Positions 2,567 through 32,854 of a stretch of DNA of 36,177 nucleotides are shown here, piece after piece. This DNA is from a virus, in the IMG/VR virus record IMGVR_UViG_3300030098_002445, positions 1 through 36,177 of that record; one strand, 5' to 3'. A program made the translations under genes and the position numbers. Under the pieces are notes generated by a model that had not been told where the DNA came from, did no database searches, and was given only the letters and a program-made list of their open reading frames with translations. Each line of letters begins with the position of its first letter. Positions within the stretch are counted from its first letter, which is position 1.

Positions 2567-4740
2567 TTACATTGCTCCTTTAATTTATCAATTTGTTCCT
2601 GTTGCTCTTTAATCGCCTCTATTAATAATCCGACCATGTTGCCATATGCTACTGTTTTTAGACCGTCATGGTTTTCGCTTACCGCTTGAGTTAGACCAGC
2701 GGCTTCAACTTCTTGAGCTATGACACCTACGCTTTCTTTGTCAGGCGTATCTTTCTTGTTAAACGTGACACCACGTATTTTAGATACAATTTCTAAAGCA
2801 TTTTCTATGGTTTTAATGTTTTCTTTAGTGCGGATGTCAGAAGTGCTTTCTATATCACCTGCACCAGTAAAAGCCCCTGCTGATGTAATCCTAAACCGCT
2901 CTGTGGCTTCCGCTGACGTATTCGTGCTAAATACAATAGCTGTAGAATTGTTATCAGCCGCAAAAGTAGCTTCCGCTTCTGCATGTATTCTTGCTCCAAC
3001 TAATATCGCATCTGTCCCACCTGCCTCTAATGGAGCCTGAAAGTCTATTTGTCCTATGCGGTCATTGTCGTTTATGTCTGTTAATGCAGTAGAAAGTAAA
3101 AGAGTCCCTTGTGATGTAGCTGAGTCTGCGGATTTGCCTCTTAGCTCTAACGTATCCGCTGATTCATCCCACAACATATACGCCCCTGCACTTGCCCCAA
3201 AAAACTTTACGTCTACGCCAGTGTCATCAACTCCTGTTGTCACAGTGCCTGTAAAAGTTTTGTTGCCTGTAAAAGTCTGTGTGCCTGATAGATGGGCAGT
3301 GTCAGCATCCAAATATGCAGACGCTATGACCGCTCCATTCCACGTTTTATTAGTAAGCGTATCCGTAGTTGCCCTACCGATCAGAGTGTCTGTCGATGCA
3401 GGTAATGTCAGCGTTACATTGCCACTAAACGCACTGTGTGCAGGTGCCTGGATTTGAGCGTAATGTGCATTGGATGATTCACAATAAAACTTAATAGTAG
3501 ATTGTGTGCCACCATTTTTTAGCGCAATATCTCCCTGAGATATGACTACTCCGTTTGTGCTTCCACCATCCACACCCAACGTGCCAACGCCAGAAATATT
3601 ATTAGAATCGTCAATAATAACTCCAGAATTTTGTCCCGTTTTTCCACCCGTTCCGTCAAAACGAACAATAGCATTATCAGTTGATGACCCAGGGCCAAAA
3701 AAATCGCCTACTCCAGTTCCACTAACAGCCGACCATTCAGGGATGGAAGAGCCTTGTTTTAAAAAATGCCCTGCCGTCCCTTTGCCAAGTCGTGCGAGGT
3801 GTCCACTTGAGTTACGGTAGTATATGTCACCTGTAGCGTCCGATCCTACCGCTAATCCAAAATTTGTAAAAATCACATCATCGGCAGATTCATCAATTAA
3901 CACACTCGATCCGCTTGTAGCTCCAAAAAACTTGACATCATAGCCTGTATCATCGACTCCAACTGTTACCGTTCCGTCAATTTGAACTGCCCCATCTATA
4001 TCTACTGCATCTAAGTTAGTTATCCCGTCTATGTCGGCATTTCCACTGACATCCAGTGAGCCAAAATCACCTTCACCAGCTACAGTGATACCAGCAGCTC
4101 CATCTAATACCGTTAATCCTACCGCATCTCCGTTGTCCGTAAACTTTAAATCCTTACCGTTTGTAATTAGTTTAATCGTAACATCGCCTGAGTTGCTCTC
4201 TGTTATGCTTAAAACGGACGTTCCCGCATCTTTGAAGGTAAACACGCCAGTATGAGCATCGAGCGTTAGAGCGTCTCCTGAGTCGATAACAATCGGATTT
4301 CCGGCTAATGTAGCACCTGTAGTTCCATCGTGCGTAATGGAAAAATCAGACCCTGCACCTAACGACAATACGGCAGAATCACTTAACAATTTTAAATCAT
4401 CACCGATAATTGCATCCAGTGCTACGGATAAACCACCATCTGTTTGTAATGACCCGTCTGTTGTTGATGTAGCATTGGTCGTATTGTCTGTTTTTAGCAA
4501 CCCTGATACCGTAAGGTTGTTTAACTGGTTTGAAGACGATGTGTCATCAAGGTCTCGAGAACCGTCTACAACTAACGCCTTAGAAGCAGTAACCTGGCCG
4601 GCTGTTACGCCCAAGTTAGAAGCATCCAAACCGCCATTTATAGCTGACGATGTAAGTAGGTTGTCAAATTCGTTATTAAGCTGTGCAGCAGTTAAAACCG
4701 CACCTGATGCAAATGTATGTACCCTTGATACAGTACCCAT
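2560..4740 (-). CDS. Tail fibre with C-terminal S74 intramolecular chaperone domain, 726 aa
   Basis: The last 95 residues (from about 632) are a peptidase S74/endosialidase chaperone domain. They include SDIRTKENIKTIENALEIV and VGVIAQEVEAAG, and end in a coiled-coil tail (AIKEQQEQIDKLKEQ). In this family the domain trimerises the fibre and then cleaves itself off at the Ser of the SD pair. The shaft is Gly/Asp/Thr-rich and carries two copies of a module with VGVDDTGYDVKFFGA or TGVDDTGVDVKFFGA followed by a DESAD segment (about residues 255-295 and 500-540). The N-terminus would join the tail. A LamG-like tip gene follows. Confidence 0.9.
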   Translation of the reverse strand: MGTVSRVHTFASGAVLTAAQLNNEFDNLLTSSAINGGLDASNLGVTAGQVTASKALVVDGSRDLDDTSSSNQLNNLTVSGLLKTDNTTNATSTTDGSLQTDGGLSVALDAIIGDDLKLLSDSAVLSLGAGSDFSITHDGTTGATLAGNPIVIDSGDALTLDAHTGVFTFKDAGTSVLSITESNSGDVTIKLITNGKDLKFTDNGDAVGLTVLDGAAGITVAGEGDFGSLDVSGNADIDGITNLDAVDIDGAVQIDGTVTVGVDDTGYDVKFFGATSGSSVLIDESADDVIFTNFGLAVGSDATGDIYYRNSSGHLARLGKGTAGHFLKQGSSIPEWSAVSGTGVGDFFGPGSSTDNAIVRFDGTGGKTGQNSGVIIDDSNNISGVGTLGVDGGSTNGVVISQGDIALKNGGTQSTIKFYCESSNAHYAQIQAPAHSAFSGNVTLTLPASTDTLIGRATTDTLTNKTWNGAVIASAYLDADTAHLSGTQTFTGNKTFTGTVTTGVDDTGVDVKFFGASAGAYMLWDESADTLELRGKSADSATSQGTLLLSTALTDINDNDRIGQIDFQAPLEAGGTDAILVGARIHAEAEATFAADNNSTAIVFSTNTSAEATERFRITSAGAFTGAGDIESTSDIRTKENIKTIENALEIVSKIRGVTFNKKDTPDKESVGVIAQEVEAAGLTQAVSENHDGLKTVAYGNMVGLLIEAIKEQQEQIDKLKEQCKC

Positions 4741-23758: not shown

Positions 23759-24214
23759 CTACTCCTTAACCGTGAAATCAGCCTCTACTGCTTGATCCAT
23801 TTTGTTGTTCTGTTTTAACCATTCTTCATAACTTTCAGCCCTTGGAGGCACATTCAACCCCTTAACCTCAACGGTATGCTCAACCTGTATGCGGTGATCA
23901 CCCACTTCTTCACGTATCTCCTTTAAAACCTTTAACTTAAGTGCTACTCGCCTGTCTTCAATCTTGTTATATAACTCTTCTAAAGCCAACACCCTGTTTT
24001 TACGCCAAGCTAAAGGCACATCATCAAAATTAGACCGATCCCGTTCAATTTCTTTTTTTAACGCTTTGTCAAACTCCGCATCTTTACGCCAGCGAAACAC
24101 CGTAGACTTATTAACGTCCAGTGTTTTAGCCACCTTGTCGTTTGCCTTGGAAGGATTCCACCTGTCCAACACAATCAACTGCACTGCTTGTTGCTGTAAA
24201 TCACTTAATGCCAT
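23759..24214 (-). CDS. terS: Terminase small subunit, 151 aa
   Basis: Residues about 25-50 form a helix-turn-helix (KVAKTLDVNKSTVFRWRKDA), and a charged coiled coil follows at about 75-105, the usual layout of DNA-recognising small terminases. I start it at the ATG at 24214, which overlaps the endolysin stop (TGATG) and has GGAG upstream; a GTG four codons earlier is less likely. It would bind the pac or cos site and recruit the large subunit. Confidence 0.8.
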   Translation of the reverse strand: MALSDLQQQAVQLIVLDRWNPSKANDKVAKTLDVNKSTVFRWRKDAEFDKALKKEIERDRSNFDDVPLAWRKNRVLALEELYNKIEDRRVALKLKVLKEIREEVGDHRIQVEHTVEVKGLNVPPRAESYEEWLKQNNKMDQAVEADFTVKE

Positions 24215-24639
24215 CAATAACTCCACAATGCAGGGCGAGGAACATGAAAATTATCGTTTGCACCTACCGTATCCAAATGCAAAAACCGCCTCGATCCACT
24301 TTGCTGAACCCCAATACCCGTAAATCCTAACTTTACAGCAGTAAATAACACCTGATAGGCAAAACCACGCTCACAAGCCACATCTACCGCTTTTCCGGTA
24401 GTATGCGACCCGGCAGGCTTGCCATCCGCTATCTTAGCCGCCTCAATCGTATGATCTATAGACCGATAACCCGAAGTAATCGTCAACGGCTTACCTACCG
24501 CATCACGTAACTTCTGCAGCTTATCCATAAACTCATCGTCCACTCGACACATACCCGTCTGTGAACAACTTAACTCAGAATGCGAAAAGTTAGGCCAGCG
24601 GTCTTCCGGCCATTCACTTTCTTTGTATTCTCTTATCAT
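24214..24639 (-). CDS. Endolysin, M15 family D,D-peptidase, 141 aa
   Basis: The zinc ligands and motifs of M15A peptidases are present: GSHTTGKAVDV (His79, Asp86) and FLHLDT (His121), with the YRS segment upstream (residues 58-60) and the common ending RPALWSY. No signal peptide is seen, so it would need a holin to reach the cell wall, where it would cut peptide bonds of peptidoglycan. It is the first gene of the late transcript, ahead of the terminase. There is no Shine-Dalgarno, and a possible -10 lies just upstream, so the mRNA may be leaderless. Confidence 0.88.
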   Translation of the reverse strand: MIREYKESEWPEDRWPNFSHSELSCSQTGMCRVDDEFMDKLQKLRDAVGKPLTITSGYRSIDHTIEAAKIADGKPAGSHTTGKAVDVACERGFAYQVLFTAVKLGFTGIGVQQSGSRRFLHLDTVGANDNFHVPRPALWSY

Positions 24640-24646
24640 AACCGTA

Positions 24647-24674
24647 AATGTAGCAAAAACAAAAATCTACGCAA
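24647..24674 (-). promoter_or_regulatory. Possible late promoter with extended -10, leaderless endolysin mRNA
   Basis: On the minus strand, TGCTACATT gives an extended -10 (TACATT at 652-647). A poor -35 (TTGCGT, 674-669) lies 16 bp upstream. Transcription would start about 24640, at the endolysin ATG, explaining the missing ribosome site. A phage-specific activator may be needed. This is a weak call. Confidence 0.35.
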
Positions 24675-24725
24675 CATAAAAAAAATAACACAGCAAAAAC
24701 GTGGGATTCCCAAAAATAAAACCGG

Positions 24726-24754
24726 TTGACAAATAAAAAACACCCCCCTATCTT
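24726..24754 (+). promoter_or_regulatory. Consensus sigma70 promoter for the gene-free region
   Basis: TTGACA at 24726-24731, a 17-bp spacer, and TATCTT at 24749-24754. The predicted start is near 24761. The spacer is A-rich then C-rich. ACCGGT (24721-24726) overlaps the first base of the -35; the same hexamer is found near the main early promoter. No open frame with a ribosome site follows for over 600 bp on this strand, so the product is probably an RNA. Confidence 0.75.
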
Positions 24755-24760
24755 CCACAA

Positions 24761-25400
24761 CACTTCGGATCAGTAGAGGACGAGTGTAGCATCGCTACCC
24801 CACTGGCTCTACAGACCGTGATACAGTCGCTACCAGGGGGTGGGTCAACAGCGACAAACCTTGGGTGAAAGCAGGGAGAGGTGACCTACGGTTCGGTGTA
24901 GAATCGACAAGTAGCCTGCAAACCGGAATGACACACCGCTCTTTCGGTAGCTATACGAGGAACTCAACGTGACGGTCAAAGTCACCTCGAGGGAAAAAGC
25001 GTAAGACAGGAGAGAGGCTAACAACCTCCTCCGTCTACAGCTAACACACATAAACCACAGGCAAAACAACCTGGGGTAAGACACCGGTGTAACTTCCAAA
25101 GAATCTAACGTTCAAGTCAAATAGCCAAACAGTAGTACAACATTCCGCAAAATGGTCAGGAACAGGGGCGCGTATGGTTGAGTATATACGGGTTCGTTTC
25201 TCTTTCTATGGGGGTCGGGTTGCTTCGCTTTGATCTACTGGCCAGAATCAAAAACAATCAAAAAAAGCAAGGCCTTATATTACGCCTTATAACGCCTCTG
25301 TAAGCTCATAGCGTCTTTTCTGGTGTGGATATAGTCCTCAAGGTCTGACGGCTGCTGACCGGCTTATTAGGCACGTAGGAATAGATTATAGATAATTGCA
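24761..25400 (+). ncRNA. Candidate large structured noncoding RNA
   Basis: This stretch holds no credible gene; a minus-strand frame at 24845-25099 is Cys/Ser/Leu-rich and unsupported. Helices read by eye: 24773-778 with 807-812 enclosing 783-786 with 801-804 and 787-790 with 794-797; 24826-831 with 850-855; 24871-875 with 915-919 around 886-889/898-901; 24935-938/945-948; 24956-960 with 985-989 enclosing 969-972/982-985; 25005-017 with 025-035, 11 bp with two single bulged A; and 25055-061 with 070-075, also with one bulged A. ACACCGGTGT (25081-090) is a 10-base palindrome. A strong promoter lies just upstream. Size and phage context recall the ornate large RNA classes GOLLD and ROOL, but I cannot confirm membership. 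The 3' end is uncertain (25400 to about 25510). Confidence 0.6.
25272..25301 (+). repeat. Three tandem GCCTTATA-like units
   Basis: GCCTTATATTAC (25272-283), GCCTTATAAC (284-293) and GCCTCTGTAA (294-303, partial match) stand head to tail inside the candidate RNA region. They could be repeated RNA elements or protein sites. Confidence 0.5.
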
Positions 25401-25420
25401 TACGTTTACAATACCACATG

Positions 25421-25476
25421 ACAACAAACACAACACAAACAAACAAACCAACACAAACCAAACCAAACACAAAAAA
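25421..25476 (+). other. 56-base tract made only of A and C
   Basis: No G or T occurs from 25421 to 25476. It would be an unstructured tail if the candidate RNA extends this far, or a G/T-only stretch just past the terminator of the minus-strand operon. No gene is present here. Confidence 0.8.
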
Positions 25477-25506
25477 GCCCACCAACCAATTTAGGCTAAT
25501 GGGCTT
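25475..25506 (-). terminator. Rho-independent terminator of the 25532-27103 operon
   Basis: On the minus strand, AAGCCCA (25506-500) pairs with TGGGCTT (25481-475), and TTTTTT follows within and after the stem. The loop is 18 bases. In the plus direction the stem lacks a good U-tract, so it may stop the candidate RNA only weakly. Confidence 0.75.
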
Positions 25507-25531
25507 CTTGTCTCCTGTTACTCTGTTTTAT

Positions 25532-25597
25532 CTAATCGCTATCGTTTAACATCCCTGCAATGGCTAAGACGATGACCAACATGATGACTTCTATCAT
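25532..25597 (-). CDS. Tiny membrane peptide, 21 aa
   Basis: The frame MIEVIMLVIVLAIAGMLNDS ends with one more Asp. It is nearly all a membrane span. Its ATG overlaps the preceding TGA (ATGA at 25597), and the operon terminator follows within 30 bp, which supports translation. It is too short for any family call. Confidence 0.45.
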   Translation of the reverse strand: MIEVIMLVIVLAIAGMLNDSD

Positions 25598-25764
25598 TTT
25601 GGCAATCCTTCCACGCCACAAGCTTCAAGGAATTTCTGTCGGTCAAAATGGCCATTAAACTGTGGCAACATCTTGGCAAATCTTAGGGCTACATTTTCTC
25701 TCTCAAATGTGTTGTCTATCTCTGCGATGGTTTCTGCGATAGCTTTAAAATGTTTACGGGTCAT
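25594..25764 (-). CDS. Small conserved phage protein, 56 aa
   Basis: The frame opens MTRKHFKAIAETIAEIDNTF and ends FDRQKFLEACGVEGLPK. The pattern of an N-terminal helix, an Asn/Arg centre and an FDR.KFL.ACGV ending is widespread in small phage proteins of unknown function. AGGAG lies 7 bases before the ATG at 25764. It is the fourth gene of the minus-strand operon. Confidence 0.8.
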   Translation of the reverse strand: MTRKHFKAIAETIAEIDNTFERENVALRFAKMLPQFNGHFDRQKFLEACGVEGLPK

Positions 25765-27138: not shown

Positions 27139-27167
27139 ATATAAAGGTAGTTTATATATCATGTCAA
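27139..27167 (-). promoter_or_regulatory. Sigma70 promoter for the minus-strand early operon
   Basis: TTGACA (27167-162) and TTATATT (27144-138) with a 17-bp spacer, minus strand, about 35 bp before the methyltransferase ATG. It closely resembles the rightward early promoter at 27421. Confidence 0.75.
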
Positions 27168-29331: not shown

Positions 29332-30538
29332 ACTTGCTTATTATAACGACATTGATCCCGTAGCTTGTGCGGTAGTAGAAAAAATGATTGAGGCTGACCT
29401 GATACCTGACGGAAATGTGGAATGTAAATCCATCACGGACATTGAACCGGAGGATATTTCTGATTACGGTGCTGTGCATATGTTTTGTGGTATTGGTCTG
29501 TGGCCTCTGGCATTACGTCAGGCTGGATGGCCTGATCCATCTGAAGGAATACCCAATAGTCAGGTTTGGACGGGATCTCCACCTTGTCAGCCGTTTTCAG
29601 TAGCATCCACCTCTAAATTAGGATTTAATGATGAACGACATCTCAGCCCACAGTTTGAACGACTCATCAAAGCAGTTAACCCTACAACAGTGTATTTTGA
29701 GCAAGTATCTGGAGCGTCAGGAAAAACTTGGTTCTCCGCTTTACAGGAGTCGCTTGAAGGAAAATACAGTACAATCGGGATCAGTAGTGGAGCTTGTACA
29801 GTCGGCAGTCCGATGCTCAGAAAACGCATCTACGGAGTTGCGGACAGACTCATGGCAGACTGCGAGGAGATCGGACGGCAGTGGTGGGCCAGCCCCAGTG
29901 CGGATAGTGAAAGACAGAGCCGTAAGGTTCTCCAAGACGGACGGACAAAACTACGGCTTAAAACTGGCAGACCAAGCGAGATTGATAGATGCGAACGAGG
30001 ATTCACCGATCCAAGCAGGGTGGGCGAGTCCACTACACTCAGACAAGAAAAACTCCAGACGGACAACGACAGAAGACGAGAAGTGGAACGATCCGAATCA
30101 CCGTCTAAGGTCAGCACATACTCTGTTGGACGTAGCGACACTGGCAGGGGCGAAGAAAACATGGACAACGCCAACAACAAAAAACCAAGAACAGGGCCAA
30201 GCGTTCTGGAACGAGGCAGAGAGGACGGAGAAACGCAAGGGTATCAACCTATTAAAGCAGGTAGCGAGGACGGTGACAGACCAACCCCACATTATCACAA
30301 CTTCTGGGCAAATCCAGACTATATCTACTGTAGGGACGGATACTACAGACCCATCCGCTCTGGCGGTGGGGCTGAATCCGCAACTTTCTGCTTACTTAAT
30401 GGGTATCCCGGACGCAGTGCTTCATTGCGTCTCCTTGGTAACGGCATCGTTGTCCCACAGGCGCAAGCGTTCATTGAGTCGCACATCGAAGCCAAAATAG
30501 AAATGGAGAAAATCAATGACAGCAATAACACAGATTAG
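29321..30538 (+). CDS. C5-cytosine DNA methyltransferase, circularly permuted type, 405 aa
   Basis: Key motifs: FCGIGLWPLAL (motif I), GSPPCQPFSVA (motif IV with catalytic Cys89), FEQV (motif VI position), RKRIYGVA (motif VIII) and LRLLGNGIVVPQAQAFI near the end (motifs IX-X). The motif II-like segment YNDIDPVACAVVEKMI comes before motif I, as in a permuted family common in phages. Residue numbers are from the ATG at 29321, which overlaps the previous stop; an ATG at 29306 is also possible. Methylation of the phage DNA against host restriction is the likely role. The region 29628-30500 is also open in the +1 frame (see separate entry). Confidence 0.88.
   Translation: MKSKLAYYNDIDPVACAVVEKMIEADLIPDGNVECKSITDIEPEDISDYGAVHMFCGIGLWPLALRQAGWPDPSEGIPNSQVWTGSPPCQPFSVASTSKLGFNDERHLSPQFERLIKAVNPTTVYFEQVSGASGKTWFSALQESLEGKYSTIGISSGACTVGSPMLRKRIYGVADRLMADCEEIGRQWWASPSADSERQSRKVLQDGRTKLRLKTGRPSEIDRCERGFTDPSRVGESTTLRQEKLQTDNDRRREVERSESPSKVSTYSVGRSDTGRGEENMDNANNKKPRTGPSVLERGREDGETQGYQPIKAGSEDGDRPTPHYHNFWANPDYIYCRDGYYRPIRSGGGAESATFCLLNGYPGRSASLRLLGNGIVVPQAQAFIESHIEAKIEMEKINDSNNTD
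29628..30500 (+). other. Long alternative frame inside the methyltransferase, 290 codons
   Basis: This +1 frame is open for 873 bases inside the methyltransferase. It encodes peptides typical of the variable part of phage Dcm proteins: GWASPLHSD, KTWTTPTTKN, then TTSGQ and LNPQLSAYLMGIPDAV near the end. The main frame has equally family-like text at both ends, so neither frame is obviously noise. It may be a dual-coding gene, two compensating frameshifts, or a relic. I see no convincing ribosome site for its ATG pair at 29628. Confidence 0.5.
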
Positions 30539-31418
30539 CCCTGCTCAGTGTGAGCTACAGTCGTTTTTGAACTCTCAGGTCAGCCAAGCTACGGCTACGG
30601 CGTACAGGTCTGATCTGGTGGAGTTTTTTGGAACTCAGATAGTCATAGCCGATCAGATACGTGAGGTGACTACTGAGGACATAGAGGACTTTCGGAACCG
30701 ATTGGTTGAACAACAGGTAAAACCCAACACGATAAATCGTAAGCTGACCTCACTGCGTTCTTTTTTTAAACGGTGTGTAGGTCTGCGTATCCTGGACCAT
30801 AGCCCTACAGAGCTTGTAAAAGGCTTTAAGACCAGTAAAACTGCTGTAGGCAGGGCGATAGATACGGAGATTCTCGAGACTATCCTCGAGGACGCAAAAA
30901 ATAAAAGCGACCCGTATATGTCGGCTCGGGATGTAGCCTTGATTACCGTTTTGTTGTTTGCAGGGCTGAGACGGTCAGAAGCATCTAATATGCAGTGGTC
31001 GCATATCATCAGCGATGGTGGATTCGATGTGTTGATATTGCCGGATACAAAGTCCGGTATGCAACAGCATGTCAAACTGGCCAAACGTGCCAAGGATGCG
31101 CTTGATAGATTGCGTGAGTATACGCACCCTGATGACACGTACGTCTTTACGAGTCTGAGTAAACATCAGCGATATGGCGATCAGTTACGGCCAGATTCGA
31201 TTAACCGGATACTAAAAAAGTATGGTAGGGATGCCGGAGTAAATTTGTCAGCACACTCGTTTAGGCATACCTGTTGCACCTTAGCACTTGAAGGTGGAGC
31301 TACAGTCCAACAGGCTCAGGCACACCTACGACACGCAGACATAGAAACAACTATGAGATATTACGAGGATCGAAACAAATTAGAAGACAACGCAACCGAT
31401 TACATACTAAAGGATTGA
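30516..31418 (+). CDS. int: Tyrosine recombinase / integrase, 300 aa
   Basis: All catalytic residues are visible: Arg152 (FAGLRRSEA), Lys179 (DTKSG), His247 and Arg250 (AHSFRHT), His273 (LRHAD) and Tyr282/283 (MRYYED). The N-terminal SAM-like domain (about 10-90, including TATAYRSDLVEFF and NTINRKLTSLRSFF) is XerC/D-like. Its size matches that group. It would integrate the genome or resolve dimers. The start overlaps the methyltransferase end by 23 bp. No attachment site was found nearby. Confidence 0.93.
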   Translation: MTAITQISPAQCELQSFLNSQVSQATATAYRSDLVEFFGTQIVIADQIREVTTEDIEDFRNRLVEQQVKPNTINRKLTSLRSFFKRCVGLRILDHSPTELVKGFKTSKTAVGRAIDTEILETILEDAKNKSDPYMSARDVALITVLLFAGLRRSEASNMQWSHIISDGGFDVLILPDTKSGMQQHVKLAKRAKDALDRLREYTHPDDTYVFTSLSKHQRYGDQLRPDSINRILKKYGRDAGVNLSAHSFRHTCCTLALEGGATVQQAQAHLRHADIETTMRYYEDRNKLEDNATDYILKD

Positions 31419-31869: not shown

Positions 31870-32342
31870 ATGATTCACCAACAATGGAATACCCACCTAC
31901 CATTAAATGGGTTCCTGGCATCAAAAGCATTACGCACGGAGAGGACGCTAAGGGCCGACCTCAGTTGCTTTTACCCGATAATCAGTATATCAGTGTCCAT
32001 TTCCCGTGGGGCGATTTCCAAGAACTAAACAATCAATGGGGCGTAAGCTACAAATTTAACGTCAACATTGACAATCAAAGATACACGATGTTTGCTGACA
32101 AGAAACTATATCAGGCTATTTTTGATTACGGTATTCGCGAAAATCAAACCATCCAGATCAAACGAACGATGACTGATTTTGAGAAAAATGGTGAGGCTCG
32201 TAAGTATAAAACCTATGACTTGATTCCACCGGAAGGCGAACAGAAGCCTACAGGCGAGGCTACTCCGACCCAAGAAGATTCAGTAGATAACTTTATTAAA
32301 AGCGAAGAAGGTTCAGACGATTTGCTTGGGGGTGATTTATAA
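31866..32342 (+). CDS. Putative ssDNA-binding protein (OB-fold-like), 158 aa
   Basis: AAAGGAGA lies at proper spacing before the ATG at 31866. The core (about residues 40-115, NNQWGVSYKFNVNIDNQRYT to NQTIQIKRTMTDFEKNG) alternates strands like an OB fold with aromatic residues. The C-terminus is acidic and ends DDLLGGDL, as in SSB proteins whose acid tail recruits partners. The next gene encodes a similar protein. The call is by pattern only. Confidence 0.6.
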   Translation: MNDSPTMEYPPTIKWVPGIKSITHGEDAKGRPQLLLPDNQYISVHFPWGDFQELNNQWGVSYKFNVNIDNQRYTMFADKKLYQAIFDYGIRENQTIQIKRTMTDFEKNGEARKYKTYDLIPPEGEQKPTGEATPTQEDSVDNFIKSEEGSDDLLGGDL

Positions 32343-32854
32343 TGGACTTGGATGAAAAGAATGCTTTGCCTCAGTTGGGATTTCGTGCTGATGTTCCCGC
32401 AGACCTTACGATTTTGGATATGGGGGCGTGGCCGTGGGTTGTCGGAGTAAACGATACGCGCTACAAATTTCATGCAGACAAACACGTCCAAGTTCTGGAG
32501 CAGATGCGACATGCTCATCTCGGTGTAGGCGATACAATACAGGTCACGGCCAGTGTGACTAAAGACAAAAAAGTAAAATTTGTTTGCAACATACTGGCTC
32601 GATACTCTCCTCCCGAAGGTAGCGAAGAGCATACGTTCTGGGTATATGAGGCACTATGTAGGCATCAGTTAAGGTGTATGAACTCAACTATTTTGAATGT
32701 CAAAAAATCGTGCATGGAAAATGGATTAGAATTTAAAATCACGCCAGAACTGCTACCTGCTATCCTATCGTCTGCTACTGGATTGGCGATAGAGTCGCAC
32801 AAACGGTTTAACTGCACTGCGTTTCACAGCGACCCAATGGATCTGCCATTCTGA
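32342..32854 (+). CDS. Second OB-fold-like protein, 170 aa
   Basis: Residues about 30-90 (MGAWPWVVGVNDTRYKFHAD followed by KHVQVLEQM, then GVGDTIQVTASVTKDKKVKF) match the layout of the upstream protein: W, RY, AD, then GDTIQV and a strand. The C-terminal half is helical (TFWVYEALCRHQLRCMNSTI). It could be a paralogue that binds ssDNA or the first protein. It starts in the previous stop (TAATG). Confidence 0.6.
   Translation: MDLDEKNALPQLGFRADVPADLTILDMGAWPWVVGVNDTRYKFHADKHVQVLEQMRHAHLGVGDTIQVTASVTKDKKVKFVCNILARYSPPEGSEEHTFWVYEALCRHQLRCMNSTILNVKKSCMENGLEFKITPELLPAILSSATGLAIESHKRFNCTAFHSDPMDLPF

Follow-up and report, generated by a model that had tools for sequence, protein, structure and literature searches.

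A structured RNA gene very probably occupies the same slot across a family of phages (we put the probability at roughly 85%), behind a sigma-70-type promoter and ahead of a short conserved core. The phage through which we describe it is an IMG/VR virus record of 36,177 bp, here called the window, and its own form of the RNA domain is referred to as type A. Few large structured RNAs are known from phages, and what they do is unexplained; this appears to be an undescribed example from a small genome. The locus is clean, consisting of a promoter, the RNA, the core and a probable attP. In distant relatives, a strongly covarying RNA lies in the same place.

Genome setting and promoter

The window is probably a near-complete genome, since a relative runs contiguously over both ends of the record, save about 285 bases. 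The genes of the left arm, including those for a P22-like portal, the small and large terminase subunits and an M15-type endolysin (24,214-24,639), are read leftward. To the right of the intervening desert are small leftward genes and then a DNA methyltransferase, followed from 27,161 by rightward early genes that include a second methyltransferase, a Cro/CI-like regulator, a RusA-like resolvase and an integrase (30,516-31,418). The gene desert that the first-pass annotation saw between phage modules is real, with no credible gene at 24,640-25,593. Its two listed frames, of 84 and 59 amino acids, are both on the minus strand; the longer was rejected as a protein because it is not conserved, having 51 codons in two relatives (L003 and L004) after net indels of 2-3 nt.

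The promoter reported there, TTGACA-17-TATCTT on the plus strand (24,726-24,754), is present, and its slot and spacing are kept in most relatives. In most phages of the three RNA types described below (A, B and C), a TTGAC-type promoter with a spacing of 17-18 stands at the RNA start, and the spacer letters differ. In a promoter scan, promoter-like sites were as numerous in shuffled sequences as in the window. A host-type sigma-70 promoter at this place would start a plus-strand transcript whose first ~350 nt would form a domain of several hairpins, with a linker and then the conserved core behind it. The transcript size of 650-750 nt suggested earlier is unproven: the stem-loop at 25,472-25,509 has its T-run on the minus strand and is weak on the plus strand, as an intrinsic terminator serving the leftward genes to its right, and the structured part comes to ~350 nt. 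No plus-strand gene lies within 1.6 kb after 25,509, the next early gene being the one at 27,161, and a leader or riboswitch role is therefore unlikely.

Two relatives show further features behind the promoter. In L003 (about 3140-3239, minus strand), an insertion of some 95 nt, which contains a T-run and a strong hairpin, separates the promoter from the type A RNA. In the close relative L008 (1-25, minus strand), the type A promoter is directly followed by different letters and then by the contig end; this phage perhaps holds a further RNA type.

The probable RNA domain of the window

Relatives were gathered via the neighbouring endolysin, which gave 24, and type A is kept in eight of these, so that the alignment comprises nine related sequences, window included. 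The domain (24,758-25,109, plus strand) has a mean column identity of 95% across the nine. Its identity to the window is 89-98%. The endolysin gene reaches 86-91%, and the linker that follows the RNA (25,110-25,160), which carries indels and has no conserved structure, 61-96%. None of the nine phages keeps a conserved reading frame through the region, and the variation that does occur falls in loops or keeps pairs.

Several hairpins, all on the plus strand, are predicted within the domain. Two that had been singled out from the window alone, a three-tier hairpin at 24,773-24,812 (GTAGAG/CTCTAC, AGTG/CACT, TAGC/GCTA) and an 11-bp stem with two bulged A residues at 25,005-25,035 (25,005-25,017 with 25,025-25,035), are exactly as they were written. 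In both, the arms are invariant in the nine phages, including all 11 pairs of the long stem, while the loops vary, from ATC to GAT in the former and from CAA to TCG or CCG in the latter. The helix GTCGCT/AGCGAC (24,826-24,855) has a two-sided change from U-A to C-G at 24,827/24,854. The hairpin at 24,879-24,917, with the loop GGUGUA, changes from G-U to G-C at 24,891/24,904, and the hairpin at 24,922-24,948, with the loop ACACC (24,933-24,937), changes from G-U to A-U at 24,926/24,944 and has one unstable end pair. A further hairpin, CC.CAGG/CCTG.GG, is drawn from the alignment at 25,055-25,076. As read off the sequence, ACACC (24,933-24,937) may form a kissing loop with GGUGU (24,895-24,899); one phage (L007) has one mismatch within this putative pairing. 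A long helix between GAGGTGAC and GTCACCTC (24,878/24,981) was discarded, since it is broken in L003 and L004.

The fold of a single sequence is no evidence on its own (PMC8250186). The ornate folding noted in the first-pass annotation is not extraordinary by sequence alone, with folding-energy z-scores of -1.8 to -2.5 for the 5´ 320-350 nt, -0.36 for the whole 756 nt and +0.1 for the distal part, and structure in the distal half (25,110-25,510) is not beyond chance. In the alignment, type A has 98.2% paired cells versus 97.4% in shuffles, for a structure that was drawn with the alignment in view. Its covariation score exceeds 497 of 500 shuffles, and the two-sided pairs number only two, which about half of the shuffles reach. 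The conservation, the missing frame and the pair-keeping changes suggest that type A is probably a conserved, non-coding, folded RNA, and we consider it likely that the window itself carries a structured RNA gene of this type.

Other RNA modules and the constant core

Distant phages were gathered by an endolysin profile together with the core motif. Eleven of them have a different RNA, type B, of 301-377 nt in the same slot, with a TTGAC-type promoter ahead in most. Here 19 pairs change on both sides (five in P1, four each in P2 and P5, three in P6, two in P7 and one in a loop-loop helix), where P5, P6 and P7 were counted on hand-aligned arms because MAFFT had misplaced a gap, and where the cells are not independent events, as the type B phages fall into few lineages. 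In P1, P2 and the loop helix together, 97.5% of cells are paired and 10 pairs are two-sided, more on both counts than in any of 500 shuffles and more than in every slid register; type B thus has what is generally looked for in a structured noncoding RNA, covarying pairs above shuffled and slid controls. The kissing loop itself covaries, reading TTGCAC:GTGCAA in most phages and ATGCAC:GTGCAT in three, and the pairing could be within or between chains. With 21 G-U cells versus no A-C cells, the type B RNA is read from the plus strand. The earlier proposal of a structured noncoding RNA in the phage desert therefore gains support from comparison, by type A conservation and type B covariation, for the part next to the promoter and not for the distal half; covarying helices were found among the type B sequences, and in type A two-sided changes amount to the two pairs mentioned.

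Type B RNAs also contain a direct repeat, its copies about 90-100 nt apart, that changes in step between phages: both copies read CCGATGTATTAG in L064 (4355-4655, minus strand), ACGTATAGG in L072 and ACGTAAAGG in L074. The type B RNA of L074 (4492-4868, minus strand) has an insertion of ~50-60 nt behind a GAAAG hairpin.

A third group, type C (L017-L025 and L098), has neither the type A nor the type B domain, and no convincing fold was found in any of its members. Upstream of the core, L017-L025 have G-runs, GGGGGGGTAAGGGGGGG, where the transcript would be expected to start, and then repeats of the GTGTACCC type; L098 has GTAC-rich repeats like these. The same order of elements, including two adjacent hairpins with pairable loops, is seen in types A and B, a likeness that we take as a lead only. 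Type A was rejected as a homologue of type B: the covariance model R1 gave only chance matches in the window (best E 1.1, in an unrelated place) and no match in relatives, and A/B alignment scores equal those of shuffles. The promoter slot and the downstream core are the sole elements common to types A, B and C. Given that A and B have no detectable homology and that type C has no convincing fold, the RNA domain appears to be exchangeable or losable, while the core stays.

This core, GTATATACGGGTTCGT-N24-GCTTCGC (25,182-25,228 in the window), or a close variant of it, is found in all types, with a spacing that is constant save one case of 23 and with variable letters between the halves. RNAalifold found no conserved RNA fold at the core. 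A hairpin spotted by eye around GCTTCGC was rejected, since arms exchanged between phages pair at least as well as its own. A distance of 31 bp, or roughly three turns of the helix, separates the two TTCG steps of the core. From its fixed spacing and the lack of a conserved fold, the core would seem to behave like a DNA site, and the 31-bp step would suit protein binding. Candidates L026 and L032 were set aside as chance matches within a coding gene. The core is also a sharp border: close relatives (L006, L007, L009, L011 and L012) are ~85-96% identical before it, some of them at about 95-96%, and unrelated after it, which makes the small leftward genes on the right of the core look like an exchangeable cassette.

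Behind the core, the window has an inverted repeat, GGCCTTATA-TTACGCCT-TATAACGCC (25,271-25,296), that is a probable attP crossover site. In the integrase-bearing lineages, the scanned records have a repeat with an ATA-N8-TAT centre, located 98-133 bp past the beginning of the core. Its arms match at 8 of 9 positions in the window, a level that only this one of the 12 such sites there reaches, and at 5-8 of 9 in relatives, some having just 5-6. The stretch 25,271-25,296 thus shows what is looked for in the attP of a tyrosine integrase, namely inverted core sites that flank a short overlap and occur along with the integrase. The repeat is absent from four integrase-less records (L064, L065, L067 and L075), which form one clade, so that the absence may be one event. 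These records keep both the RNA and the core, neither of which is thus tied to integration. The same clade has, right of the core, a 492-aa protein (L097, 6895-8373, plus strand) that has the P-loop GPAGSGKT and, at its N terminus, a long acidic part of repetitive sequence.

Known RNAs and possible functions

The RNA matches no catalogued family and looks like an undescribed phage RNA gene. None of 4227 Rfam families scored at or above its gathering threshold in the window or in any of seven related loci, and up to E=10 nothing relevant, ROOL, GOLLD, OLE and HEARO included, appeared at 24,500-25,700. The Rfam model of the phi29 pRNA had no match. By ARAGORN and Rfam, no tRNA or tmRNA genes are present in the window or the seven related loci, and a tRNA-like reading of GTTCAAATCC in L037 was dropped, there being no tRNA, tmRNA or Rfam match. 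Searches with blastn returned a 33-nt terminator-like match only, and no convincing relative, among isolated phages, and no relevant match among plasmids.

ROOL and GOLLD, of which the first-pass annotation was reminded, are phage RNAs held together via kissing loops (PMC12286853). The RNA described here resembles ROOL in being a phage-borne, stand-alone, large structured RNA with kissing loops, and GOLLD in being a phage-borne ornate RNA with loop-loop contacts (PMC12286853). It differs from ROOL in lacking an Rfam match and neighbouring tRNA genes and in its structured part of ~350 nt, compared with 659 nt for the solved ROOL, and from GOLLD, which is often > 800 nt and near tRNA genes, again in lacking an Rfam match. 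The likeness is at most one of kind.

Our preferred, still tentative, reading is that the RNA acts in trans in the lytic cycle, as a folded molecule that may associate with itself through loop-loop contacts. Such oligomers, perhaps formed by the kissing loops, would be like those of ROOL and GOLLD, whose RNAs build homo-oligomeric cages, without kinship to either.

The strongest of the other readings, though unlikely, is an RNA-primed replication origin. The RNA II pre-primer of ColE1, from which DNA synthesis is primed once RNase H has cleaved it, has its own promoter, a folded, variable 5´ part and a conserved downstream element, and the locus is laid out in the same order, as promoter, variable RNA and constant core. 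In an origin of this kind, the exchangeable 5´ part would control an RNA-DNA hybrid, and the core would mark where host enzymes start synthesis. Fitting with this, no replication protein is recognisable: across ten records of the phage family nothing above cut-off matched DnaB, PolA or DnaC-type families, and the window's named proteins include none. The locus also lies at a change in GC skew, with the cumulative minimum at 25-28 kb. However, divergent transcription also yields GC skew, several early proteins without an assigned identity could be initiators, the distal RNA is G-poor, unlike R-loop formers, and, in a difference from ColE1-type RNA II, blastn shows no similarity to any plasmid record. 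A broader idea, which we hold to be rather improbable, is that interchangeable and apparently non-homologous RNA modules (A, B and C), each transcribed from one promoter slot, act on one invariant core as an initiator-free origin or a packaging switch. These phages have no recognisable replication proteins, and their swapping of unrelated modules next to an unchanging core makes the function of the RNA concretely testable.

It is quite improbable that the locus controls the late operon, with the core as a leftward late promoter and the convergent plus-strand RNA antisense to, or interfering with, the late leader. Late genes do run leftward, and the minus strand of the core has TATACT with TAGAAA 16 bp upstream, conserved upstream letters and fixed spacing. 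Still, strong pair covariation with G-U on the plus strand shows selection on a folded plus-strand RNA, which plain antisense action or interference would not need, and the implied leader would be 400-850 nt long.

We are very doubtful, too, that the locus is a packaging element, in which the core would be the site of the terminase small subunit (pac) and the RNA would act in packaging like the phi29 pRNA, likewise a phage RNA with loop-loop contacts. The locus adjoins the genes for the endolysin and both terminase subunits, the core has its fixed spacing and two TTCG steps, and type B has kissing loops. The RNA is, however, longer than the pRNA and unmatched in Rfam, the phi29 pRNA included, and its packaging role is only putative; moreover, pac sites are often inside the small-subunit gene. 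Cohesive ends at the core were rejected as unlikely, since no contig ends there and a relative is continuous over the ends of the window record.

Equally doubtful is a function in DNA only, in which the region would serve regulation and integration and type A would fold like an RNA by coincidence: the probable attP in the distal half, the lack of clear RNA structure in type C and the modest energy z-scores would fit, but the 5´ domain is conserved as well as or better than the endolysin gene, its arms stay constant while loops change, and the RNA is retained in phages that have neither integrase nor attP.

Two early proteins were compared with solved structures and had no relative, and their predicted models are of low confidence. 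The early protein at 32,342-32,854 (plus strand) ends in DPMDLPF, which is conserved in four relatives and resembles the tip of single-strand DNA-binding proteins.
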